Source of the DNA: Gemmatimonadota bacterium
GTDB taxonomy: Bacteria; Gemmatimonadota; Gemmatimonadetes; Gemmatimonadales; Gemmatimonadaceae
Assembly: GCA_021413975.1 (NCBI GenBank)
Contig: JAIOPJ010000054.1
Location: 186,001-250,000, forward strand
Reading direction: 5' to 3'
Length of the DNA: 64,000 nt
The notes beneath the pieces were generated by a model that saw nothing but the letters and a program-made list of their open reading frames with translations, did not search any database and was not told the DNA's origin. Made by a program: the position numbers and the translations under genes. Of the stretch, positions 3,576 through 38,336 are shown piece after piece (positions within the stretch are counted from its first letter, which is position 1; the number at the start of each line of letters is the position of its first letter).

Positions 3576-4817
3576 TCAGGTCAGCAGCGCCGTCGCCAGC
3601 CCGAGGAAGAGCCCCATGCTCGCCACGTCGGTCGCCGTGGTGAGGAAGATGCTCGACGCCGTCGCCGGGTCGGCGCCCACGCGGCGGAGCGTGAGCGGGA
3701 TCAATGCACCGGCGATCCCGCTGACCACGCAGCTCGCCGTCATCGCGAGGGCGACGATGCCGGCGAGACCCAGGGCGTTGGCATTCCCCTGCGAGCGCGC
3801 GACGACGAACATGCCGGCTCCCGCGGTGAGTCCCACGAGCGCGCCGTTCACCAATCCGAGCAATGCCTCCTTGGCGACGAGCGCGCGCTCGGTGCCGGCC
3901 TTGAGCTCGCCCAGCGTGAGCCCACGCAGCGTGACGGCGAGCGCCTGACAGCCGGTGTTCCCGGACTGGCCCGCGAGCACCGGCAGGAAGAGCGCCAGGA
4001 TGACCATCTGGTCGAGCGTCTGCTGGAAGATGCCGACCACGCCGGCCGCGAGGAACGCCGTGAGCAGGTTGAGCTGCAGCCAGGGGTGACGGAACCTCAG
4101 GCTGCGCGACCAGGGCGTGAGCAGGCGCTCCTCCTCCGCGACACCGACCATGCGGCCGGGCTGGGCGCTGAACTCGACGGCCTGCTCCTCGAACATCGCA
4201 CTGCCGCGCACCTGACCGACGAGCAGGCCGGCGTCGTCGGTGACCGGGTAGACCGGATAGTGGCGGTGCACGACGAGGCGCATCGCCTCGTCGAGCGGCA
4301 TCGAGGCCTTGAGCGCGAAGACGTCGCGCAGCATGAGGCTCTCGAGCGTCGCGTCGTCGTCCTCGGAGACGACGAGGTCGCGCATGGTCACGACGCCGAC
4401 GATGCGGCCCGCGTCGTCGAGGACGAAGAGGTAGGTGAGCATCACCCGCTTGGCGAGCTCGCGCACCCGCTGCGTGGCCTGTCGCACGGTCTCGCGCGGA
4501 CGGAAGATCGCCGGCGTCGGCTCCATCAGCCGCCCGATGCTGTCCTCCGCGAACGTGAGGTTGCGCGACCACTGCGCCGTGACCTCGTGCGGTGCGATCG
4601 CGAACATCGACGTGCGGCGCTCGGGTTCGAGCTCCGGGATGATGTCGCTCGCGACCGACGGATTGATCTGTTGCAGCACCTCGGCCATGAGCGCGTCGGG
4701 GTACTGCTCGAGCGCGTCCGCGGCCTCGGCGGGACCGAGCTTCACGATCTGCGAGGCGAGGCGGTCGGCCTCGCCGGGGTTCGCGGACTTCACGCCGCGC
4801 GGCTTCCCTTCGTCCAC
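3576..4817 (-). CDS. mgtE: MgtE-family magnesium transporter
   Basis: Mg2+ channel/transporter of the inner membrane. With this start it has 413 residues: an MgtE_N helical superhelix (to about 125), two CBS domains (about 130-255) that gate the channel by sensing Mg2+, and a C-terminal membrane domain of about five helices (from 270) with the conserved LPVLAGQSGNTGCQ segment. I chose GTG at 4817 because GGAGCAGG lies just upstream and the protein then begins where the family does; an in-frame ATG at 4928 would add 37 atypical residues and overlap the divergent gene. An aspartate-rich CBS region fits cation sensing. It faces the convergent sugar dehydrogenase. Confidence 0.85.
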   Translation of the reverse strand: MDEGKPRGVKSANPGEADRLASQIVKLGPAEAADALEQYPDALMAEVLQQINPSVASDIIPELEPERRTSMFAIAPHEVTAQWSRNLTFAEDSIGRLMEPTPAIFRPRETVRQATQRVRELAKRVMLTYLFVLDDAGRIVGVVTMRDLVVSEDDDATLESLMLRDVFALKASMPLDEAMRLVVHRHYPVYPVTDDAGLLVGQVRGSAMFEEQAVEFSAQPGRMVGVAEEERLLTPWSRSLRFRHPWLQLNLLTAFLAAGVVGIFQQTLDQMVILALFLPVLAGQSGNTGCQALAVTLRGLTLGELKAGTERALVAKEALLGLVNGALVGLTAGAGMFVVARSQGNANALGLAGIVALAMTASCVVSGIAGALIPLTLRRVGADPATASSIFLTTATDVASMGLFLGLATALLT

Positions 4818-4926
4818 AGCCCTGCTCCGGTAGAGGGTCGTCTGCGGGGAGGAAGATGGGCGATGCACGCGAGCGACGACAGGGGAGCGCCTCGCCAATC
4901 GCGAGCCATTCGCCGACATTATTGCC

Positions 4927-6012
4927 ATGCGTCGTCCTGCGGTGGTCCTCCTCGCCCTGCTCCTGCTCGGCCTCGTCTACCTCGCCGCCTGGCCGGTGCC
5001 GGTGTCGCCGGTCGCGTGGACGGCACCGGCGAACCCCGGACTCGTCGGTGCGTTCGCCGCGGACTCCGCGCTCTCGGGTCTCACGGCGCTGAGCCTCGGC
5101 GGCCACCAGGGCCCCGAGAGCGTGGCGCGCGACCGGGCCGGCCGCATCTACGTCTCCACGCGCGACGGCACGATCCTGCGCTTCGCTCCCGACGCCGGCG
5201 TCGGCGACCCGGCCCAAGCCTGGGCGAACACCGGTGGCCGTCCGCTGGGCCTCGTGTTCGACACGGCGGGCACGCTCTTCGTCACCGATGGCGAGCGCGG
5301 TCTCCTCGCCGTCGACACCAGCGGCGCGGTGCGTCTGCTCGCCGACTCCGCCGACGGCACGCGGATCGAGTTCGCCGACGACCTCGACGTCGCCGCGAAC
5401 GGGAAGGTCTACTTCTCCGATGCCTCGACCAAGTTCGGCGTGCGTGCGCAGAGCGACGAGGACGCGAGCCTCCTCGACGTGATCGAGCATGGCGGTCACG
5501 GCCGCCTCATCGAGTGGGACCCGGCGACCGGGAAGGCGACCGTCCTGCTGGCGGGGATCGACTTCGCCAACGGCGTCGCGATGACACCGGACCAACAGGC
5601 GGTGCTGCTCTGCGAGACGGGCCACTACCGGATCCTGCGCGTGGGCGTCGCCGGCGCGGACCGCGGGCGCTCCACCCCCGTCATCGAGGCGCTGCCGGGC
5701 TTCCCCGACAACATCTCGCGCGCCGGCGACGACCGGTACTGGGTCGCGCTCTTCGCGCCGCGCAACGCGCTGCTCGACCGGCTCTCCGGATCGCCGAACC
5801 TGCGGAAGGTGCTGCTGCGCATCCCGCGCGCGCTGCGTCCGAAGGCGGAGGAGTACGGTCACATCATCGTCATCGATGCCAGCGGCAAGGTCCTCGACGA
5901 CCGACAGGATCCCACCGGGAGTTACCCCAAGATGACCGATGTGCTGGAGACCGAGCGGTATCTCTACATCGGGAGCCTGCAGGGCGGCGTGCTGGCGAGG
6001 GTGCCGCGATGA
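4927..6012 (+). CDS. SMP-30/gluconolactonase or strictosidine-synthase-like beta-propeller protein
   Basis: A 361-residue six-bladed propeller protein with an N-terminal membrane anchor or uncleaved signal (hydrophobic residues 6-22). The repeated blade motifs (GRIYVSTRDG, GLVFDTAGTLFVTDG, FADDLDVAANGKVYFSDAS, NGVAMTPD) and the EFADDLDV and FPDNIS elements match the strictosidine-synthase-like/APMAP branch of the SMP-30 family, whose bacterial members are lactonases or arylesterases. Its stop overlaps the next start as ATGA, so it is co-translated with the methyltransferase downstream. The substrate cannot be read from sequence. Confidence 0.78.
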   Translation: MRRPAVVLLALLLLGLVYLAAWPVPVSPVAWTAPANPGLVGAFAADSALSGLTALSLGGHQGPESVARDRAGRIYVSTRDGTILRFAPDAGVGDPAQAWANTGGRPLGLVFDTAGTLFVTDGERGLLAVDTSGAVRLLADSADGTRIEFADDLDVAANGKVYFSDASTKFGVRAQSDEDASLLDVIEHGGHGRLIEWDPATGKATVLLAGIDFANGVAMTPDQQAVLLCETGHYRILRVGVAGADRGRSTPVIEALPGFPDNISRAGDDRYWVALFAPRNALLDRLSGSPNLRKVLLRIPRALRPKAEEYGHIIVIDASGKVLDDRQDPTGSYPKMTDVLETERYLYIGSLQGGVLARVPR

Positions 6013-6773
6013 CCCTGCCCGACACCCGCGCCTACGACGGCGACTTCTATGCCGACCACGCGGAGAGTTCCCCGCGCTCGGCGGCCGCGGTGCTGCCGCT
6101 GGTCTACCGCATCTTCCGGCCGGAGCGCGTGATCGACATCGGTTGCGGTCAGGGCTCGTGGCTCGCCGCCGCCGAACAGTTGGGGAGCACGGTGCTCACC
6201 GGACTCGACGGCCCCTGGGTCGACCGCGCCCAGCTGCGCAGCGCGCGGATCGATTTCCGGCCGACCGACCTCGCCGGCGCGATCACCATCGAGCAGCGCC
6301 ACGATCTCTGCATCTCGGTCGAGGTCGCCGAGCACCTCCCGGCAGCGAGCGCCGACGGGTTCGTGGATGCGCTCTGCGGCGCCGCCGATGTGGTGCTCTT
6401 CAGTGCCGCGGTGCCGCTCCAGGGTGGGACCGAGCATGTGAACGAGGAGCGCGCGTCCCGTTGGGCCGCCAGATTCGGTGCGCGCGGATACGAGTGCTTC
6501 GACCTCGTGCGCGGCGCGGTCTGGGACGACGAGCGCGTGGCCTGGTGGTACCGGCAGAACGCGTTCGTCTACGTGGCGAGGTCGTCACCGCGCTTCGCCG
6601 CGTTCGCGGCCGCTCCGCTCCCGCCTCCGCCACGCGACGTCGTACATCCCGCCGCGTTCGAGGAGAAGGTCGCATGGCTCACCGCCGAGCAGGCGCGCCT
6701 CCGGCAGTGGGTCGAGCATCCGTCGCTCGCTCAGGCGCTGCGTACCGCCTGGCGGGCGATCTCCGGCGGATAG
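6009..6773 (+). CDS. SAM-dependent methyltransferase, class I
   Basis: A 254-residue protein starting at the ATG that overlaps the previous stop by four bases. The class I SAM-binding motif is clear (VIDIGCGQGSWL, about residues 38-49), then an acidic motif II (LTGLDGPWVD) and motif IV around CISVEVAEHLP, typical of Methyltransf_23-type enzymes acting on small molecules or sugar intermediates. The C-terminal 60 residues are proline-rich then helical. The pairing with the propeller protein is suggestive of a joint pathway, but neither substrate is evident. Confidence 0.78.
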   Translation: MTLPDTRAYDGDFYADHAESSPRSAAAVLPLVYRIFRPERVIDIGCGQGSWLAAAEQLGSTVLTGLDGPWVDRAQLRSARIDFRPTDLAGAITIEQRHDLCISVEVAEHLPAASADGFVDALCGAADVVLFSAAVPLQGGTEHVNEERASRWAARFGARGYECFDLVRGAVWDDERVAWWYRQNAFVYVARSSPRFAAFAAAPLPPPPRDVVHPAAFEEKVAWLTAEQARLRQWVEHPSLAQALRTAWRAISGG

Positions 6774-6838
6774 CTCCACGTTCGAAGCGGTCCAGCGCGA
6801 CGTCCACCGTCCTTTCCAGTCGACCCGAGGTACGCCCG

Positions 6839-7261
6839 ATGCCCACGCTCCCGCCGTTCGCCCGTTCGTTCGTCGCCGTGATGGCCGGCATGGTCGTGGC
6901 GGTCACCGTCGTCTCGATCGGCGATCTCGTCGCCGGGACCTTCCACCCGCTGCCGGCCGGATTCGACATGGGCGACATGGCGCAGGTGCGCGCCCACGCC
7001 GCGGCGGCTCCCTTGTCGGCGATGCTGATCGTCCTCGCCGGCTGGATCCTCGGCCCGTTCGCCGGGGGACTCGTGGCGTCCAGGGTCGCCGCGCGGAGCC
7101 GCCGCCAGTACGCCTGGATCATCGCGGGCGTGCTGCTCGCCGCGACACTCGCCAACCTGCGCGCGCTCCCGCATCCGGCGTGGATGGTGGTGGGCGCCCT
7201 GATCGGCGTGCCGGCCGCCGGATGGTCGGCGGCGCGTCTCGCTCCACGCGACGAGGCCTGA
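6839..7261 (+). CDS. small integral membrane protein, unknown function
   Basis: A 140-residue protein with about four predicted membrane helices (residues 12-32, 58-78, 88-105 and 112-128) and a short charged C-terminus. Helices contain glycine-rich packing motifs such as GPFAGGLVASRVAARSRR and GALIGVPAAGW. I do not recognise a named family. The gene stands between the methyltransferase and a convergent lipase, with a hairpin immediately after its stop. Confidence 0.6.
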   Translation: MPTLPPFARSFVAVMAGMVVAVTVVSIGDLVAGTFHPLPAGFDMGDMAQVRAHAAAAPLSAMLIVLAGWILGPFAGGLVASRVAARSRRQYAWIIAGVLLAATLANLRALPHPAWMVVGALIGVPAAGWSAARLAPRDEA

Positions 7262-7287
7262 GGCGATCCCCCCGCCTCGCGATCGCC
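7262..7287. terminator. hairpin between convergent genes
   Basis: Seven-base arms GGCGATC (7262-7268) and GATCGCC (7281-7287) with a 12-base loop fill the whole gap between two convergent stop codons. There is no T tract, so bidirectional termination is inferred from position only. Confidence 0.4.
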
Positions 7288-7288
7288 G

Positions 7289-8131
7289 TCAGGCGGTGCG
7301 TCGCGGGTCGAGCCAGGCGTCGAGCGCGGCGAACACCGGGGTCGCGTCACGCTCGTTGAGGATCTCGTGATAGAGGCCGTCGAAGCACTTCGCGCTGAGT
7401 GCCACGGCCGGCGCCGCCGCCGCGAAGGCGGCGCTCCCGCGCGGAGACACGAGCTTGTCGTCTCCCGCCCACAGCAGCAGTGTCGGCACCGGCCACCGAC
7501 CGGCGCGCGCGAGCACCGCCTTGCCGCCCTTGACCAGCGCGTGGGCGAGCCGGGCCGTGACCCGGTCATGCACGAGCGGATCGTCGATATAGGCCCGCAC
7601 CACCGCGGGGTCGTGCGAGATCCTGGTCGCGTCCAGATGGTTGCTCATCGCGAGGTCTGGGACGAGCGCGAACCCCACCGCCAGTTGCAGTCGCTGGGCG
7701 AAGCCGAGCCCCGCGTCGAGGGCGGGTGACGAGAGCACCAGTGCATCCACCGCGCCGCGCGACTCGGCGACGAACTGCGCCGCGACGAGCCCGCCCATGC
7801 TGTGGCCGAGGAGGACGAAGGGGCGCGCGGGCGAGGCGGCACGCACGGCGGCGATCACGCGCGACAGGTCATCCAGGAGGTCGTCGGCCTCCCTCAGGGC
7901 CCCGCGCTTGCCCGGCGAGGCGCCGTGCCCGCGCTGGTCATAGCCGTGCACGTCCCAGCCGCGCGCGACGAGGTGCGCCGCGACATGGTCATAGCGCCCG
8001 ATGTGCTCGCCGAGACCGTGGACGATCAGCAGGGTCCCGCGCACCTGGCCGACCGCGGGCCAGTGGCGCAGGACGAGGTCGAGCGCGTCACGGGTGCGGA
8101 CGGTCGTCGGAAGGGGCGTGGAGGATGTCAC
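7289..8131 (-). CDS. alpha/beta hydrolase, monoacylglycerol lipase-like
   Basis: A 280-residue serine hydrolase. It shows the HGLGEH oxyanion-side motif near residue 34, the GYDQRGHGAS segment typical of monoacylglycerol lipase and lysophospholipase (hydrolase_4) proteins, and the nucleophile elbow GHSMGG at about residue 110. The acid lies in LLLWAGDDKLVSP and the catalytic His in DGLYHEILNE near the end. No signal peptide, so probably cytoplasmic. It likely hydrolyses monoglycerides or lysolipids. Convergent with the small membrane protein gene. Confidence 0.85.
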   Translation of the reverse strand: MTSSTPLPTTVRTRDALDLVLRHWPAVGQVRGTLLIVHGLGEHIGRYDHVAAHLVARGWDVHGYDQRGHGASPGKRGALREADDLLDDLSRVIAAVRAASPARPFVLLGHSMGGLVAAQFVAESRGAVDALVLSSPALDAGLGFAQRLQLAVGFALVPDLAMSNHLDATRISHDPAVVRAYIDDPLVHDRVTARLAHALVKGGKAVLARAGRWPVPTLLLWAGDDKLVSPRGSAAFAAAAPAVALSAKCFDGLYHEILNERDATPVFAALDAWLDPRRTA

Positions 8132-8239
8132 GATGTGTGCGGCTGGCGTCCGCGGGGGACGCTGGTGAGTTTTCGGGGTAGCACCGGGTAAGATGGCGCG
8201 TGCCGCGCCCTCGTGGACAGGTCTCCGACGGAGTCAGCG

Positions 8240-8539
8240 ATGATCACATACGAGGTCACGGCCACGGTGCGCGACGATCTGCGGTCGCGCTACGAGGTCT
8301 TCATGCGCGAGCGTCACATCCCCGACGTGCTGCTCACGGGGCTCTTCGCGGGTGCGCACTTCTTCCGTGGCGACGACGGTCGGTTCCGGACGCGCTACGA
8401 GCTGGCCGATCGGCCTTCGCTGGAGCGCTACCTCGGGACCCATGCCGCGCGATTGCGGGCCGATCTCGCGGCGCACTTCCCGGAGGGCGTGGAGCTGGCG
8501 CGCGATGTCTGGAGCGAGCTGCGCGCGTGGCCGCATTGA
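8240..8539 (+). CDS. DUF4286 family protein
   Basis: A 99-residue cytoplasmic protein beginning MITYEV, resembling the ferredoxin-like DUF4286 family (dimeric alpha/beta barrel fold): beta strand at the start, the helix YEVFMRERHIPDVL, then FRTRYEL and a C-terminal helical half. Function is unknown. An upstream in-frame start at 8213 would add nine residues that do not look native. The lipase gene downstream begins inside its last codons, implying translational coupling. Confidence 0.65.
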   Translation: MITYEVTATVRDDLRSRYEVFMRERHIPDVLLTGLFAGAHFFRGDDGRFRTRYELADRPSLERYLGTHAARLRADLAAHFPEGVELARDVWSELRAWPH

Positions 8540-9294
8540 GTCCTGGGCCCTTCCGTGCCGTGCTCTGGCGGGTCGTGCTGATGCTCGCGTGGATCGCGCC
8601 CGCACTGCGCGCGCAGGGGCGCACCGCGCCTCCCTCCGCGTGGCCGCACGATCCGCTCGCGCCGCACGAGCTGGTGGTGCTCGCGCACGGCATGGGACGC
8701 ACGCCGGTCTCCATGGCGCCCCTCCGGCGTGCGCTCGAGGCCGAAGGCTACGAGGTGATGAGTTTCCGCTACTCGAGCTACTGCTGCACCATCGCCGAGA
8801 TCGGCGAGCGTCTGCGTCGCGAACTCGCGGCCACGATCGGACCGCAGCACACCCGTGTGCACTTCGTCGGTCACAGCCTCGGCAACATCGTGATCCGCTA
8901 TGTGCTCACGCGCGACACGCTCCCGCCGCGCGTGGGCCGCGTGGTGATGCTCGCGCCGCCCAACCAGGGGGCGCATGCGGCCAACACCTTCGCGCCGATC
9001 GTGGGGTGGCTCCTCCGGCCCGTCTCCGAACTCGGCTCCGACAGCGCCTCGACCGTGCGGCGACTGCCGCGAGTGAAGGACGTGACGATCGGCGTGATCG
9101 CCGGGCGCGACGATCGCACGGTGAAGATCCCCGAGACGCACCTCGCCGAGGAGTCGGCGCATCTCGTGGTGGGGGGCGGGCATTCGTTCATCATGAGCCG
9201 CCGGGACGTCAAGGAGCAGGTGATCGTGTTCCTGCGAACGGGCGCGTTCGCGATGGGCACCTCGGTTCCTGTCGCGACCTCCCGGGTGCCCTGA
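8527..9294 (+). CDS. secreted lipase-like alpha/beta hydrolase
   Basis: A 255-residue hydrolase started at GTG 8527, which overlaps the previous gene by 13 bases and supplies a signal peptide ending near ALRAQ. The oxyanion motif is LAHGMGR, the nucleophile elbow FVGHSLGN is at about residue 118, followed by MLAPPNQGAHAAN, which is typical of triacylglycerol lipases and PGAP1-like esterases. Asp in GRDDRTV and His in GGGHSF complete a plausible triad. It is likely periplasmic and acts on lipid esters. Confidence 0.8.
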   Translation: MAALSPGPFRAVLWRVVLMLAWIAPALRAQGRTAPPSAWPHDPLAPHELVVLAHGMGRTPVSMAPLRRALEAEGYEVMSFRYSSYCCTIAEIGERLRRELAATIGPQHTRVHFVGHSLGNIVIRYVLTRDTLPPRVGRVVMLAPPNQGAHAANTFAPIVGWLLRPVSELGSDSASTVRRLPRVKDVTIGVIAGRDDRTVKIPETHLAEESAHLVVGGGHSFIMSRRDVKEQVIVFLRTGAFAMGTSVPVATSRVP

Positions 9295-31630: not shown

Positions 31631-32218
31631 GTGACCGCACTCCCACCACCGATGCAAAGCCCTGCCCGCCCGTCGGCACCGCCACCGATCCCGGCCCTGC
31701 CGGGCGCGCCCGGCGCGGCGACTGGATCAGGGGGGAGCGGTGGAGGGGCCGCGCCCGAAGCGCCGTTGCCGGCGCAGATCTCGCGGGACGCCGCCACGGC
31801 CGCACAGGATGCTGCCACGGCCGCTCGGGATGCCGCCACGCTGGCCCGGGACAACGCGACCGCCATCCGCGACGCACAGGGGACCGGATCCGAGGGATTC
31901 ACCACCAGCACCGGGGTGCCGATCGACCCGGAGGCGATCATCCGCGAGGCGATCCCGATCGTCGGGATGAGCCTCTCCATGATCGTGGTGATCTTCATCG
32001 GCTGGCCGCTCGCGCGCGCGTTCGCGCGTCGGCTCGACCGCCGCACCGAACTGGGCATGGTGAGCGCCGCCGAGCTTCAGCCGCAGATCAGGCAACTGCA
32101 GGAGAGCATCGATACGATGGCGGTCGAGCTCGAGCGGATCAGCGAGTCGCAGCGCTTCCAGGCGAAGCTGCTCGCGGAGCGGCCGCAGGCGCTGCCGGTG
32201 GAGCAGAAGCGCGCCTGA
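31631..32218 (+). CDS. membrane protein with heptad-repeat region, unknown function
   Basis: A 195-residue protein. The N-terminal 50 residues are Pro/Gly/Ala rich. Residues about 53-84 are four seven-residue units of the type DAATAAR, a coiled coil encoded by 21-bp tandem repeats. One membrane helix follows (about 113-130), and the C-terminal third is a second coiled coil (ELQPQIRQLQESIDTM). GTG start has GAGGAGAA before it. Its last 80 bases overlap the tail of the helicase gene on the other strand. Could tether or oligomerise; no family recognised. Confidence 0.55.
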   Translation: MTALPPPMQSPARPSAPPPIPALPGAPGAATGSGGSGGGAAPEAPLPAQISRDAATAAQDAATAARDAATLARDNATAIRDAQGTGSEGFTTSTGVPIDPEAIIREAIPIVGMSLSMIVVIFIGWPLARAFARRLDRRTELGMVSAAELQPQIRQLQESIDTMAVELERISESQRFQAKLLAERPQALPVEQKRA

Positions 32219-34472
32219 GCAGGAGCAGGGGGGTGGCGCGCGCCGTGTCGCGCGCCGCCCGGGCAGGGGCGCCCGCCGCCGCGCCGGCCGACCGGTCCTT
32301 GAGCAACGCGCCGAGCCGCCGAGCGAATGCGGCGTCGTCGGGATCGCGCCGCAGCAGATCGTCGATCCGCGCTTCGCGCGCGGCCTCGAGCGGCAGTGCG
32401 AGAATCCGCAGGATCTCCGCGTGACGCTGTGCGACCACCGGCCGCACCAGCGCGGGGGCGCGCTCGAGCAGCCGCGCGAGGCGCTCCCGCACGCGCTTGA
32501 ATCGTCGCGCGCCGCTCGATCGAGGAACTCCGCCACAGGTCGCGCCCGTGACGTCGAGGGCGAGTCGCCGCGCCAGCACGCGCGCGAGCAGCCGCCGCAC
32601 ACGGCGCGCGGTGATCGCGGACGGACTCCCGTTCGTCCCCGGGCCCCCCTCCGGCGAGAGTGACGCCGCGGATTCCGGGGCGCAGCGGTCGGATGCACGC
32701 AGCACCGAGAGTACCCGACGCGGCGCCGAACTCACGCGCCACCGCGTGCCGTCGTGGACGCCGCAGACGAGCTGCGCCTCATCGCGCTCGTATGCCACGG
32801 AGATGAAGCCGTCGACGCCGGCCAGCATCGTCGCACTGGGGCCGCGCCGCGACTCGAGGCGGCCATGGCCTCTCTCGCGCGGCAGCGGTCCCGTCGCGAG
32901 CCACGTCTCGAGGATGCCGACGATCTCCCCGCGCGCATCGCCCTCGCGCACGGCCAGCCGCCTCAGCCGCGCCTTGCGCGCGAGCCGCGCGCCGAGCCGC
33001 ACGAGCGCACGGGCGCCCGGCGGGGCCGCGAACCAGGTCTCGAGGACCTCGCGCGCGCCGCTCCCCACCCGCACCACGCGCCCGACCCGTTGCTCGAGCC
33101 GTGCAGGCGTCCACGGGAGGTCCGCGTGCAGCACCATTCCCACGCCCTGCATCTCCACGCCCTCGGCCAGGGCGTCGGTGCTGAGCACGAGCCGGATCGC
33201 GCGCGGGTCATGCGCCTCATGCGCCCGCGCCCCGGGACCGATCGCACGCAGCACCTCGTCCCGGCTCCACCGGCCCGAGGCCGCCCGTACCCGCGCGCCC
33301 ACGATCGCCACCACGCCCGGCTCTCCCCGCAGCGCCGAATGGAGCGCGTGTACCGTCTCGGCGTGGCGGGCGAAGGCGACCAGGCGTTGGCCCGGACGAG
33401 ACGCGAGCAGTGCGCGGATGGCGTCGGCGCGCTGCGCCGCATCCCGCGCGCGATGCGGGCCGATCAGATCGCGCAGCATCCGTATCGCCGCGAGGTGCCG
33501 CTCCAGTGCCGCGAGCATCGTACGCGACGTCGCGGCCGCCGGGATTCCCGGGGCCGGAGCAACGAGCAACGGCAGTGCGAGCTGAGTCGCGTCGTCATGC
33601 AGCACCCAATGCCGCAGCGCGGCGTGCGAGGGCATGAGCCCCGCGCGCAGGAGGTCGCCGAGCGCGCCTCCGCGCTGCACACGCCGTCGCAGTGCCGCGT
33701 CGAGGGCCGCAAGGCTCGACTGCCAGGCCATCGCCAGCGACATCACGACGAGCGCGGTCGCCGTGGCGCCTCCGGCAACGGGGATCGGCGGCGGCAACTC
33801 CCGCAATGCCTCGCCGATCCCGTCGATCGCGACATGCGCCACGACCGGTCCGAGGCGTCTCAAGGTCGGTCGACCCTCGCTCACCTCGCGCCGCCGCACC
33901 ACGCACCGACCGAGCTCCGCCGACGTGAGCCGTTCCGCGCGCGACCCCATGAACAGCGCGAGCAGGGCGTCGCGATCGGCCGCCCGGTTCACGACCGGCG
34001 TGGCCGAGAGGAGCAGCACCTTCGCTCCCAGGCACGCGACCGCGGCATTGGCATAGCGTCGCGTGGCGACCGTGCGCAGATGGTGCGCCTCGTCGACGAT
34101 GACGAGATCCGCGGCCTGCTGCGCGCCCCCTCGGCTCAACGCCTCATGGCTCACGAAGACGATCGGCACGGCCGCCCGTTCGGCGGCGGAGCGCCACTGC
34201 GTCCGGAGCGTCGACGGACCGAGGACGAGCACCCGGCCCGCGCCACGCGCCGCGGCGAGCGCGAGGACGGTCTTGCCGGTGCCAGGCGGGTCGGCGAGCA
34301 GCGCACCGCCGAACTCGGCGATCGCCGCGCGGACCTCGCTCAGCGTGCGACGCTGGGCCGGCCGCAGGGTGAAGCCGCCGAGATCGGGACCGCGTCCCCG
34401 CGTCGGGGTCGCCTGAGGCTGTTTCCCCAGCACCGCCGACGCGATGAGCGCGCGCACCTCGCTCGCGGTCAT
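32139..34472 (-). CDS. SNF2-like DEAD/DEAH helicase of an MTase-helicase cassette
   Basis: A 777-residue superfamily 2 helicase. Walker A is DPPGTGKT at residues 61-68, Walker B is DEAH at 127-130, motif III is LLLSATPVVNR, motif V/VI is TDALAEGVEMQGV and LEQRVGRVVRVGSG. The first 45 residues hold a Q-type motif (LRPAQRRT). The last 200 residues are a separate helical domain without a known nuclease. Starts with ATGA overlap on the methylase gene, so it is made from the same mRNA. It resembles the DrmD-type SNF2 helicases that accompany DNA methylases in anti-phage systems; defence is inferred. Confidence 0.8.
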   Translation of the reverse strand: MTASEVRALIASAVLGKQPQATPTRGRGPDLGGFTLRPAQRRTLSEVRAAIAEFGGALLADPPGTGKTVLALAAARGAGRVLVLGPSTLRTQWRSAAERAAVPIVFVSHEALSRGGAQQAADLVIVDEAHHLRTVATRRYANAAVACLGAKVLLLSATPVVNRAADRDALLALFMGSRAERLTSAELGRCVVRRREVSEGRPTLRRLGPVVAHVAIDGIGEALRELPPPIPVAGGATATALVVMSLAMAWQSSLAALDAALRRRVQRGGALGDLLRAGLMPSHAALRHWVLHDDATQLALPLLVAPAPGIPAAATSRTMLAALERHLAAIRMLRDLIGPHRARDAAQRADAIRALLASRPGQRLVAFARHAETVHALHSALRGEPGVVAIVGARVRAASGRWSRDEVLRAIGPGARAHEAHDPRAIRLVLSTDALAEGVEMQGVGMVLHADLPWTPARLEQRVGRVVRVGSGAREVLETWFAAPPGARALVRLGARLARKARLRRLAVREGDARGEIVGILETWLATGPLPRERGHGRLESRRGPSATMLAGVDGFISVAYERDEAQLVCGVHDGTRWRVSSAPRRVLSVLRASDRCAPESAASLSPEGGPGTNGSPSAITARRVRRLLARVLARRLALDVTGATCGGVPRSSGARRFKRVRERLARLLERAPALVRPVVAQRHAEILRILALPLEAAREARIDDLLRRDPDDAAFARRLGALLKDRSAGAAAGAPARAARDTARATPLLLLRRASAPPAAPAAAPRAASPGSAATR

Positions 34473-37400
34473 CCGTCGTTCCATGCGAGCAACGCCGCCA
34501 CGACCCGCCGCTCGATCCCGTAGGCCTCGCATGCGACCCGCACGAGCCGTTCATCGCTCGGCGGTCGGCCGGCGGCGCCCTCGCGCCCGAGCGGCGAGAG
34601 CAGCGCGCGGGCGCGCGGCCAGTCCGTCGGCACGGGCAGGCGCGCACAGGTCCAACCGAGATAACGATGGTAGCCACCTCGTGCCGGCTCGGCGATCGCG
34701 TTGAGCCAGGCGGCGGCGAGCGGCGAGTTGATCAGGGCTGCCAGTGCGTGCGCGTCGTCGGCAACGGTGGTGCGGATCACGTAGCAGGTGTTGAGCGGAA
34801 CGGTGCGGTCGCCGGTCTCGAGGACGAGTGCACGAGGTGATCGTCCGATGTCCCCCCAGACCACGCGCGGCCGATCGCTGCGCGCCGCCTCGGTGCGGAA
34901 GAGCGCCCACCAGCGTGCGCCGCGCGCGTCGCTGCGACCTTCGAGGCGCTGGCGCCACGGCGTGAGCCAGGCGCGCGCGAGTGGCCGCAAGGACTCGGCG
35001 GGAATGCCGCGTGTGTCGTGCGTCCAGATGATCGAGGAGCGCTGCGCCTCCTCGGTGAGCGACCAGGCGCGTACATGCTCACCGCGCGCGAGCGGCCGGA
35101 GATGCGAGGACTCCACGGTGCCGCAGAGCGCCCCGCTGCGTACGGCGACGGCGTCGGAGGGCGCTCGGGTCGCGGAGGCCTCCATCGCGGAGGCCTCCAC
35201 CACGAAGGCCTCGTTGCAACCGCTCTTCACTCCGAGCATCGGTCGGCCGAACGGCGTGTCGGCGAGCGGTCTGCCCGCGGCGGCGAGTGCGTCGAAGCCC
35301 GCGCGCACCGGTGGAGGGATCAGGAGCCAGGGCGCCCCGCGGCTCGCGTCGAGCGCGAGCGACGTCGCCGGCGTGTCCCACGCGCGCGATGCGCCTGTGC
35401 AGTGCAGCGACACGCGTACCGGCGAGCCGCGCAGAGGCGCGCCACGCACCGGCGAGCCGCTCGTGTCCGGGCTGCAGCGCGCGATGAGCGCCGACGGATA
35501 GACCACGGCATCGAAGCCGGCACCTCCGTCCATCCACAGTTCCAACCCCACCAGCGTCGTTCGCCGTCGCAGCAGGTCACGCACCCCACCGCCCGCGAGT
35601 GCGTTCCAGAGCTTCGCGGGCAGCAGGAGCGCGATCACGCCTCCAAGCCGCGTGAGTTGCACTGCGCGCTCGGTGAAGACCGCGGCGAGGTCGGCCTGGG
35701 AGGCGAAGCCGCGCCCGGCGCCCGCGGATTCCGCACCGCTCTCCCACGCCGCCTGGCGGAAGGTCACGAACCGCTCCCTCAAGGCGTCGCGCATGGCCGG
35801 GTCAACGTCATGCGGGCGTACCCATGGCGGGTTGCCGAGCACGAGATCGAAACCCGCCGCCACCTCGGGGAAGTGCGTGGCGAAGGAGAACGGGAGCGCC
35901 CCGCCATCGCGAAGCCGCCGAATGGACGCGCGTTCCCTGCGTAGCGACTCGCGCACCGCGTCGAGTGCTCTCCGTGTGGCCGCGTCGGGCATGCGACGCG
36001 ACTGGAAGAGATCGGGGGCGCGCGCGGCGAGGAGGAGTTCCCGCCGCTCGTGCGTGAGACGTTCGACCCGTCGTGCCGCGGCACCGAGCGCGCGCTTCCG
36101 TTCGGCGACGTCGAGCGCGCGTGCGAGCGTGCGCTTGCGCACTCCGCTGGCGCGCGCGTACCGCAGGCGCATCGGTGCGAGGTCGGCACCGTCGGGGACG
36201 ACGGCCTCGTCGAAGCCTGGTCCGGAGAGTGCGTCTCCTTCGCGTACGTTCCGGTCGAGGTTGGGCAGGGGAGGGAAGTGCATCGGATCGTCGCGATCGT
36301 CCTCCACCACGACGGAGAGCCAGAGCCGCAGTTGGCAGAGCCAGACCGCCGTGGGGTCGATGTCCACGCCGAAGATCGACCTCGTGAGCACCTCGCGTCG
36401 CACCGTGCCGAGGGAACGTGCGTCCCCCTGCGCGATGCGAAGCGCCGCGATCGATTCGAGCGCGTGCACGAGGAAGGCCCCCGACCCGCAGGCGGGGTCG
36501 AGCACGCGGATCGCCTCGAGCCGGCGGTCCCCGCCCGCGGCGGCCAGCGCGGCGAGCGCACGCTCGGTGAGCCGCGAGATCAGGGGGTGCGGCGTGTAGA
36601 ACGCGCCCTGGCGACGACGCGTCTCTCCGGCCATGAGCGACTCGAAGGCGCGGCCCAGCATCTCGGGATCGACGGCGGCGTCGGAGAGCTCGGTCGTGGT
36701 CTCTCGCGCGGTGAGGCGATACCGGGGCAAGAGGTCGCCGATCACCCCGGCGATCGCGTCGTCGGTGAGGCGGAGTCCGCGGCAGCGGGTCTCGACGCCA
36801 CTCCGCTGGAACAGACCGCCGTTGAGGAACGGCACGCGCCCGAATGCGCGCGCCGCGCTCGCACGTCGCGGGACCGGCGTGTTGAGGGTGCCGAAGAAGA
36901 GCGGGTCGAGCAGGCGGTCGTGCAACCGCTCCGCAGCCGCGACCCGCTCCATCTGGTGGCGGAGGAATGCGCGGTCGCGATCGAGCCAGCCCTTGGCCTC
37001 GAGGAACGAGAGGAAGAGCAGGCGCGATGTGGTGAGCAGGGCGATGGTGCGGCGATCGTCGGCATCGGCGCGACCGGCGGCGGTGCGCGCGAGCGTACTC
37101 ACCGCGGACTCGAGGTCACGATAGAAGCGCCGGGTGAGCGCGTCGCGGCCGAGGGTCTCGCGCCAACGCAGGTGCACGAGCGTCGCTGCGCCTGCGGCGC
37201 CGAGGTCAGCCGCGGCCGAGAGCGCCGCGAAGGTCTCCGCATCCGATTCCCGCAGTTGCCTTGCCTCCATCAGCAGGGCGGGCACGGCATCGCGGGACGC
37301 GGCGTCGGGGGCCGCGATCAGCAGTTCGCCGCGCGTGCGGTGCGCCGCGATCACGATCCAATGGAGCTCGGGCGATCGTCGTGCGACGGCGCGGGCGGTG

Positions 37401-37639
37401 GTGGCGATCCGGTCGCGGAGTGCGGGGCCGGCGTCCCACTCCAGGAGCAGCGCCCGCAGGGACTCGCGTCCGGCGGCCACGCGCACCCGGCGAGGAGGGT
37501 CGTCGATGCCGAGTCGTGCGACGTCGCGCGGGAGGATGCGCAGCGGATCGGCGAATCCGAGCGCGGTGGAGAGCGAGGCGAGCGGCGCCTCGTGACCGGC
37601 CGCGGCGAGGAGGCGCGCGGCATCGCGGGTGGTGAGCAC
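34469..37639 (-). CDS. Eco57I/BREX-like adenine DNA methylase, probable defence gene
   Basis: A 1056-residue N6-adenine methylase. Motif I for SAM is VLDPACGSGAFL (379-390), the catalytic NPPW is at 603-606, and the YTP substrate-coupling motif is at about 348-350. Other family landmarks are FLEAKGWL, FLNGGLF and VKSGCNEAFVV before a target-recognition-like C-terminus. The N-terminal 200 residues are not a recognised nuclease. GTG start. Paired with a helicase in a stop-start overlap and without DrmA/B/C, Pgl or BREX genes, so it is either a stand-alone two-gene system or a fragment of one. Known IIG enzymes cut and methylate with one protein; cleavage here is unproven. Confidence 0.8.
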   Translation of the reverse strand: MLTTRDAARLLAAAGHEAPLASLSTALGFADPLRILPRDVARLGIDDPPRRVRVAAGRESLRALLLEWDAGPALRDRIATTARAVARRSPELHWIVIAAHRTRGELLIAAPDAASRDAVPALLMEARQLRESDAETFAALSAAADLGAAGAATLVHLRWRETLGRDALTRRFYRDLESAVSTLARTAAGRADADDRRTIALLTTSRLLFLSFLEAKGWLDRDRAFLRHQMERVAAAERLHDRLLDPLFFGTLNTPVPRRASAARAFGRVPFLNGGLFQRSGVETRCRGLRLTDDAIAGVIGDLLPRYRLTARETTTELSDAAVDPEMLGRAFESLMAGETRRRQGAFYTPHPLISRLTERALAALAAAGGDRRLEAIRVLDPACGSGAFLVHALESIAALRIAQGDARSLGTVRREVLTRSIFGVDIDPTAVWLCQLRLWLSVVVEDDRDDPMHFPPLPNLDRNVREGDALSGPGFDEAVVPDGADLAPMRLRYARASGVRKRTLARALDVAERKRALGAAARRVERLTHERRELLLAARAPDLFQSRRMPDAATRRALDAVRESLRRERASIRRLRDGGALPFSFATHFPEVAAGFDLVLGNPPWVRPHDVDPAMRDALRERFVTFRQAAWESGAESAGAGRGFASQADLAAVFTERAVQLTRLGGVIALLLPAKLWNALAGGGVRDLLRRRTTLVGLELWMDGGAGFDAVVYPSALIARCSPDTSGSPVRGAPLRGSPVRVSLHCTGASRAWDTPATSLALDASRGAPWLLIPPPVRAGFDALAAAGRPLADTPFGRPMLGVKSGCNEAFVVEASAMEASATRAPSDAVAVRSGALCGTVESSHLRPLARGEHVRAWSLTEEAQRSSIIWTHDTRGIPAESLRPLARAWLTPWRQRLEGRSDARGARWWALFRTEAARSDRPRVVWGDIGRSPRALVLETGDRTVPLNTCYVIRTTVADDAHALAALINSPLAAAWLNAIAEPARGGYHRYLGWTCARLPVPTDWPRARALLSPLGREGAAGRPPSDERLVRVACEAYGIERRVVAALLAWNDG

Positions 37640-37676: not shown

Positions 37677-38336
37677 TCACTTCATCGCGAGCCGCTCCAC
37701 CACATCGCGCAGGTCCGCGAACTCGTGCAGCCAGTAGGTCGGGCCCGCCGTCTCGAGTTGCGCGCGGCTGAACGGCCCCCAGAGGGCCGCCGCCGTGGCG
37801 ACGCCGGCCGCGTTCCCGGCGTGCACGTCGTGCGTGGAGTCGCCAACGAAGAGCGCGTCCGCGGGCGGCACACCGCCGATCCGCGCCAGCGCATGCAGCA
37901 CCGGCTCGGGGTCCGGCTTGTGCCGCGCCGTGGACTCGATCCCCACGACGGCGGAGAAGCACTCCTCGATCCCGACGAAGGCGAGCGATCGGCGCGCGCC
38001 CACCGCGAGCTTCGACGTCACCACCGCGAGCGGATTCCCCTCGGCGTGCAGGGCGCGCACCATCTCCACGGCACCGGGATAGGCCGTAGTCATCGCATCG
38101 TGGTTGGCGAACTGGAACTCGCGGTAGCGCGCGCGGAGCAGTTCCACGTCGGCGTCATCGCGCGCCCAGCGGCGGAGCATCCCGTCGAGCGGCGTACCGA
38201 TCGCCGCCTTCCACTGGTCGACCGGCGGACGGTGCTCACGGTCGCCGAAGGCGTACTCCATCGACGCCACCAGGAGGCCGATGGAGTCGATGAGCGTGCC
38301 GTCGAGGTCGAAGAGGATCGCGGGTCGCTTGGTCAC
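37677..38336 (-). CDS. HAD-superfamily phosphatase, phosphoglycolate phosphatase-like
   Basis: A 219-residue HAD hydrolase starting at GTG. Motif I is FDLDGTLIDS with the nucleophile Asp, motif II is VVTSKLA, and motif IV is FVGDSTHDVHAG. The small alpha cap and the GIEST-x-RHKPDPEP loop resemble phosphoglycolate phosphatase/pyrophosphatase PpaX-type enzymes. Cytoplasmic; substrate could be phosphoglycolate, pyrophosphate or another sugar phosphate. Transcribed ahead of the methylase-helicase pair but not overlapping. Confidence 0.82.
   Translation of the reverse strand: MTKRPAILFDLDGTLIDSIGLLVASMEYAFGDREHRPPVDQWKAAIGTPLDGMLRRWARDDADVELLRARYREFQFANHDAMTTAYPGAVEMVRALHAEGNPLAVVTSKLAVGARRSLAFVGIEECFSAVVGIESTARHKPDPEPVLHALARIGGVPPADALFVGDSTHDVHAGNAAGVATAAALWGPFSRAQLETAGPTYWLHEFADLRDVVERLAMK

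Follow-up and report, generated by a model that had tools for sequence, protein, structure and literature searches.

Introduction

The DnmA-YeeB-YeeC system of Bacillus subtilis comprises an MmeI-like N6-methyladenine (6mA) methylase without a nuclease motif, the superfamily 2 helicase YeeB and YeeC; DnmA influences promoters, is regarded by its authors as an orphan methylase in function, and the system left transformation and three phages unaffected under the conditions tested (PMC7261158, PMC9973331). ARMADA, an anti-phage system, combines a RapA-like helicase, a PglX-like methylase and a YprA-like helicase, and its protection requires both its helicase and the NPPW motif of its methylase (PMC12458937). 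DISARM class 1 includes the SNF2-like helicase DrmD and the adenine methylase DrmMI (PMC9142583), and CamA of Clostridioides difficile is a conserved orphan 6mA regulator (PMC13395437). Here we describe a two-gene methylase-helicase pair in a 64,000-nucleotide stretch of DNA (the window; positions 186,001 to 250,000 of contig JAIOPJ010000054.1, assembly GCA_021413975.1) from a Gemmatimonadota bacterium of the family Gemmatimonadaceae, whose genome is a 3.08-Mb draft that is 92.7% complete. The two genes, designated MT and HEL, encode a predicted Eco57I/MmeI-type N6-adenine DNA methyltransferase and a predicted SNF2-type superfamily 2 double-stranded DNA translocase, respectively. With moderate confidence, we propose that MT-HEL is a nuclease-free methylase-translocase pair with a core epigenetic or chromosome-maintenance role.

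Results

Anatomy of the MT-HEL pair

MT (34469 to 37639, minus strand; 1056 amino acids [aa]) and HEL (32139 to 34472, minus strand; 777 aa) were assigned from their open reading frames, Pfam matches, homologues and structural models. The stop codon of MT and the start codon of HEL share an ATGA overlap at 34469 to 34472 (minus strand), as placed by the open reading frame coordinates, and the GTG start of MT is backed by the N-termini of aligned homologues. MT carries the motifs YTP (residues 348–350), LDPACGSGAFL (380–390), NPPW (603–606) and SGCN (806–809), and HEL carries DPPGTGKT (61–68), DEAH (127–130) and QRVGR (461–465). Matches above the curated Pfam cut-offs were to Eco57I, N6_Mtase and MmeI_Mtase for MT and to Helicase_C, ResIII and SNF2-rel_dom for HEL. 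Both reading frames, their overlap and the motifs cited for them had been proposed in a sequence-only reading of the window, and the coordinates, translations and Pfam matches bear them out.

Four parts can be distinguished in MT, all on the minus strand. Residues 1–145 (37205 to 37639) form an alpha/beta N-terminal domain, according to the secondary structure of the model, and occupy the position of the nuclease in type IIG/IIL enzymes. Residues 146–320 (36680 to 37204) comprise a helical spacer and an invariant PxLNGGLF block, recognized by weak MmeI_hel and DUF7814 matches, the alignment and the model. Residues 321–720 (35480 to 36679) are the methyltransferase core, with the S-adenosylmethionine motif DPACGSGAF at 381–389 and the catalytic NPPW, and residues 771–1010 (34610 to 35329) are a TaqI-like target-recognition region, supported by a profile match and the alignment. 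In HEL, an alignment of 24 homologues delimits a two-lobed ATPase motor (GTGKT, DEAH, SATP and QRxGR) at residues 30–505 (32958 to 34385, minus strand).

The model of MT has a mean predicted local distance difference test score (pLDDT) of 88.8, and its nearest solved folds are CamA and M.BseCI, followed by MmeI and PglX. The likeness to CamA and M.BseCI lies in the methylase and target-recognition parts, whereas these enzymes have only about 575 aa, lack an N-terminal domain and spacer like those of MT and share 11–14% identity with it. We know of no helicase partner for either enzyme. The HEL model has a mean pLDDT of 76.2, its C-terminal part being in places of low confidence, and the nearest solved folds are SNF2 double-stranded DNA translocases such as Chd1, INO80 and Rad54.

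The pair differs from described methylase-helicase systems

Partial profile matches to DrmD, DpdE, BrxH, DrmMI and PglX confirmed the relationship to DISARM- and BREX-type components that had been suggested from the sequence. The matches fall far short of equivalence: HEL scored 78.6 bits against the NCBIfam cut-off of 610 for DrmD, the PADLOC match of MT to DrmMI covered only part of the protein (89 bits), and MT scored 53.6 bits against a cut-off of 400 for PglX (NF033451). The MZB/DUF1998 domain (PF09369) of DrmB/YprA-type proteins was absent from the host genome and detected in 2 of the 17 genomes of the genus, DrmA and DrmC not having been searched separately, and no DrmB-type gene was recognized beside the pair in the loci read. 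On this DrmB-type search, the DrmA, DrmB and DrmC set of class 1 DISARM was not found, and DISARM resembles the pair only in that its SNF2-like helicase and adenine methylase belong to the same superfamilies. PglZ of BREX (PF08665) had no match above cut-off in any of the 17 genus genomes. The YeeC-type domain T5orf172 (PF10544) was likewise absent from all 17, while the B. subtilis control was positive. For a YprA-like ArmC of ARMADA, there was no third gene common to the loci and no MZB domain in the genome, although ArmC itself was not modelled. DISARM, BREX and YeeC-type partners encoded elsewhere in the genome were thus sought and rejected on negative profile searches, in agreement with the earlier statement that no drmB- or pglZ-type gene adjoins the pair; within the 92.7% complete genome, this holds beyond the window too.

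The closest parallel in type is DnmA-YeeB-YeeC, in which an MmeI-like methylase without nuclease residues is followed by a superfamily 2 helicase in the same order, a likeness of kind that does not derive from direct alignment of MT or HEL to DnmA or YeeB. It differs in having YeeC (T5orf172/GIY-YIG), undetected in the MT-HEL genomes, and is described as horizontally acquired, whereas MT-HEL is largely a vertical family trait. ARMADA shares a gene pair of a RapA/BrxHII-like helicase and a PglX-like methylase, but has an extra YprA-like helicase, joined by ArmD in type II, and its helicase gene usually precedes the methylase gene (PMC12458937), whereas MT comes first here. The helicase gene is often first in more distant relatives as well, and the helicases of these distant helicase-first pairs are longer than HEL. 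MmeI and the type IIG/IIL enzymes share the layout of N-terminal domain, helical spacer, methylase and target-recognition region, but MT lacks their conserved nuclease residues and is accompanied by a separate SNF2 translocase gene. By these profiles and alignments, the pair does not belong to DISARM, BREX or type IIG restriction, and it resembles a nuclease-free relative of DnmA-YeeB-YeeC and of the helicase-methylase module of ARMADA and DISARM.

No nuclease or effector is recognized in either protein

The sequence-only reading had placed a hidden effector in the N-terminal part of the methylase or the C-terminal part of the helicase. Column-by-column inspection of 27 Gemmatimonadota sequences revealed no conserved D...(D/E)xK set of acidic residues and lysine within MT residues 1–160, and a D...ExK pattern search with alignment found no common set in more distant MT relatives either. 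A nuclease within residues 1–145 was rejected for this lack of conserved residues, and the nuclease-containing polypeptide of type IIG/IIL restriction-modification was accordingly not found. In the C-terminal third of HEL, no residue beyond K500 is invariant across the 24 homologues, so an effector there was also rejected, the model being partly of low confidence in this region. The proposal of a hidden effector is therefore not supported at either end. Neither protein of the pair was recognized as a cognate nuclease and no third gene recurs from phylum to phylum, the survey for nucleases not having extended to the rest of the genome.

Near-universal presence and mostly vertical inheritance of MT-HEL in Gemmatimonadaceae

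MT was present in 218 of 395 genomes across Gemmatimonadota and in 124 of the 140 sampled Gemmatimonadaceae genomes, one truncated copy (in genome G171) included. HEL was found in 144 of 298 genomes, none of which lacked MT. At the threshold used, 23 genomes had MT without a HEL match; some of these represent contig ends or distant copies, since two of them (G038 and G187) do have HEL adjoining MT. G080 retains MT while a HEL match is absent from the genome.

In nearly all of the approximately 58 Gemmatimonadota loci read, MT precedes HEL on the same strand. The exceptions are a locus without HEL (L043), one in which about 11.6 kb separates the two genes (L063, genome G025) and a few short gaps. 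Two more distant Gemmatimonadota loci (L118, positions 5066–5620, and L049) have a small gene between MT and HEL that encodes 185–193 aa and lacks a Pfam match; its product may be a third component or the N-terminal part of a helicase. Genes for HAD, glycosyltransferase, sigma factor, anti-sigma factor and DUF4097 proteins are repeatedly found near the pair, their order differing among lineages.

Trees of MT and rpoB from 25 genomes had 16 of 22 splits in common, and every strong conflict involved G199, a distant genome that rpoB groups with G108. The correlation of pairwise identities with those of rpoB was rho 0.80 for MT and 0.82 for HEL. A phage search for the pair gave zero matches, and a plasmid search gave 25 records, each partial and below 60% identity; a mobile-element origin was rejected on these grounds. 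Distribution, synteny and the rpoB comparison together show clade-wide vertical inheritance, as expected of a core orphan methylase: almost all Gemmatimonadaceae have the pair, most of its inheritance is vertical, and its surroundings on the chromosome are conserved in part.

MT is patchy in Myxococcota (33 of 237 genomes). Among 14 loci from Myxococcota, Acidobacteriota and one deltaproteobacterium, HEL was present in 13, usually adjacent to MT, and no further neighbour, and hence no third partner, was common to them. The adjacency across Gemmatimonadota and this lack of a third partner support the earlier suggestion that the pair alone is the conserved unit, and answer the question whether homologous pairs travel alone: no other gene is common to the loci across phyla. 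In a deltaproteobacterial locus with a distant helicase-methylase pair (L139, positions 3743–9018), the methylase relative (1385 aa) carries a C-terminal AbiEi-like domain at residues 1156–1377 and is followed by an AbiEii-like gene and then by BrxL-like and PDC-S68-like genes.

Catalytic motifs and target recognition are constrained

NPPW and DPxxG(S/T)G were each present in 56 of 56 aligned MT homologues, and G64, G66, K67, D127, E128, H130, Q461, R462, G464 and R465 of HEL were invariant in 24 homologues. In the one close pair measured, the ratio of nonsynonymous to synonymous substitution rates (dN/dS) was about 0.13 for MT, 0.11 for its target-recognition region and 0.18 for HEL, indicating purifying selection. 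This selection, and the conservation of MT and HEL in hundreds of genomes, rule out chance. At a catalytic-domain identity of 0.55–0.65, target-recognition identity was 0.547 among Gemmatimonadaceae, compared with 0.458 among Myxococcota and 0.350 among distant DrmMI/ArmB-like relatives, the contrast with the last group being indicative because that group is a mixture. Gemmatimonadaceae thus show a much stronger constraint on target recognition than the distant relatives do, suggesting that the specificity of MT is probably fixed in the family.

The pair has been deleted in several relatives

Loss loci were located through the upstream glycosyltransferase gene and remnants were sought with the MT profile; six loci were read. 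In the close relative G189, whose genome measures 2.3 Mb and whose flanks are 82% identical, the HAD gene is directly followed by a DUF4097 gene, the deletion having removed MT, HEL, a membrane gene, the sigma and anti-sigma genes and one DUF4097 gene. In G171 (2.1 Mb), only MT residues 1–197 are left, ahead of that same DUF4097 gene. In both of these small genomes (loci L217 and L222, respectively), the deletion of the pair also took the extracytoplasmic function (ECF) sigma factor, the anti-sigma factor and one DUF4097 gene. G263 has kept the HAD and membrane genes with neither MT nor HEL between them, G173 has kept the HAD and glycosyltransferase genes with MT and HEL gone, and G210 has the glycosyltransferase gene alone on a short contig. 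G235 was rejected as a loss, its contig ending within MT. Where read, the absences are chromosomal deletions, one of which left a truncated MT. Absence or a remnant occurred in 7 of 8 genomes of 2.4 Mb or less compared with 9 of 131 larger ones (p ~5e-7), with the truncated copy of G171 counted as lost, G235 excluded and no correction for completeness or relatedness.

Genes flanking the pair

The flanks consist of ordinary genes, as previously described, namely those for a HAD phosphatase, a glycosyltransferase, a dicarboxylate symporter, an ECF sigma factor and DUF4097 proteins. The HAD_2 phosphatase-like gene (37677 to 38336, minus strand), 37 bp upstream of MT, is a recurrent neighbour in many Gemmatimonadota, either 5′ of MT or 3′ of HEL, but not in Myxococcota. 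It was rejected as a third component on account of this varying position and its absence from the Myxococcota loci, and probably does not belong to the system. On the opposite strand, a conserved gene at 31631–32218 encodes 195 aa that have no Pfam match, and its last 80 bases (32139–32218) are shared with the 3′ end of HEL. Scanning the region for promoters gave no hits above the level of chance.

Discussion

The anatomy of the pair, its conserved catalytic motifs, vertical inheritance and constrained target recognition, and the absence of recognized nuclease residues are established by comparison of sequences; that MT methylates DNA, that it co-operates with HEL and what the pair does are what we infer beyond them. 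A core epigenetic or chromosome-maintenance role is favoured because MT occurs in 124 of 140 family genomes, HEL never occurs without it, the genes are nearly always adjacent and the MT tree is largely rpoB-like. It is favoured further because the catalytic motifs are kept, dN/dS is low, target recognition is constrained and no nuclease residues are conserved; because the nearest folds are CamA/M.BseCI and SNF2 translocases, with no phage matches and only partial, distant plasmid matches; and because there is a precedent in DnmA beside YeeB, with promoter effects and no measurable phage protection (PMC7261158, PMC9973331). MT would put N6-methyladenine on one conserved target sequence, and HEL would use ATP hydrolysis to move along double-stranded DNA, probably removing bound proteins or carrying MT along, which would ensure full marking of DNA after its replication. 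Alternatively, the mark may be what prompts HEL to act on DNA. Overall, the role would be comparable to that of CcrM or CamA, and the pair probably descends from, or is a sister of, the helicase-methylase module of DISARM, ARMADA and DnmA-YeeB-YeeC. More tentatively, MT-HEL may be a family-wide, perhaps order-wide, marking machine, in which a core 6mA methylase works with a dedicated SNF2-type translocase as a domesticated relative of the DISARM/ARMADA module.

Several observations weigh against such a role. The pair is dispensable, since several relatives, most of which have small genomes, have lost it by deletion. Outside Gemmatimonadota, the homologues whose roles have been tested include defence components, namely ARMADA (PMC12458937) and the DnmA/YeeB homologues of Vibrio crassostreae, for which anti-phage effects are cited in PMC9973331. 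The dependence of HEL on MT suits defence equally, and conserved specificity is deduced from sequence identity alone in groups that differ in diversity.

The main rival is that MT-HEL is a resident, vertically inherited system for excluding phages or plasmids, in which MT would mark self DNA and HEL would load onto unmarked DNA and block replication or transcription without cutting. The partial profile matches give both proteins defence relatives, the distant pair of L139 adjoins AbiEii-, BrxL- and PDC-S68-type genes, and ARMADA protection needs its helicase and the methylase NPPW (PMC12458937). The absence of HEL without MT (0 of 144 genomes) is expected if the mark protects the host, and the clustering of losses in reduced genomes also speaks for exclusion. 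However, near-universal, largely vertical inheritance, a partly conserved setting and constrained specificity are unusual for defence genes, no effector is recognized, and neither phages nor transformation responded to DnmA-YeeB-YeeC in the experiments reported (PMC7261158, PMC9973331). We consider exclusion plausible but less likely than a core role. The defence cassette of the sequence-only reading survives in part: the defence-type relatives stand, but a mobile character is contradicted by the distribution and weakened by the setting and the constrained target recognition.

That the pair is part of a larger known system (DISARM, ARMADA, BREX or DnmA-YeeB-YeeC) with its other genes elsewhere in the genome is disfavoured and very unlikely. 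The common ancestry of the two components would fit, and a missing stretch could be suspected from the host genome alone, given its completeness; however, the MZB, PglZ and T5orf172 searches extended to the 17 genus genomes, and no third gene accompanies the pair in Myxococcota or Acidobacteriota. That the pair is what remains of a restriction or DISARM-like system, inert and only persisting, would suit the lack of a recognized nuclease, DrmB, PglZ or YeeC-type partner and the several losses, but is highly improbable given the conserved catalytic motifs of MT and HEL and the purifying selection that extends to the target-recognition region.

Literature searches found nothing on the MT-HEL pair in Gemmatimonadota methylome work or defence surveys, and no epigenetic work for the phylum. 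If a core role is correct, the small set of core methylases would gain an adenine-methylation system that spans a clade and includes its own DNA translocase. The pair would represent either a module of defence type that has taken on a stable function in the cell or an anti-phage system kept almost universally through a whole family, and the relatives with and without it make both readings testable.

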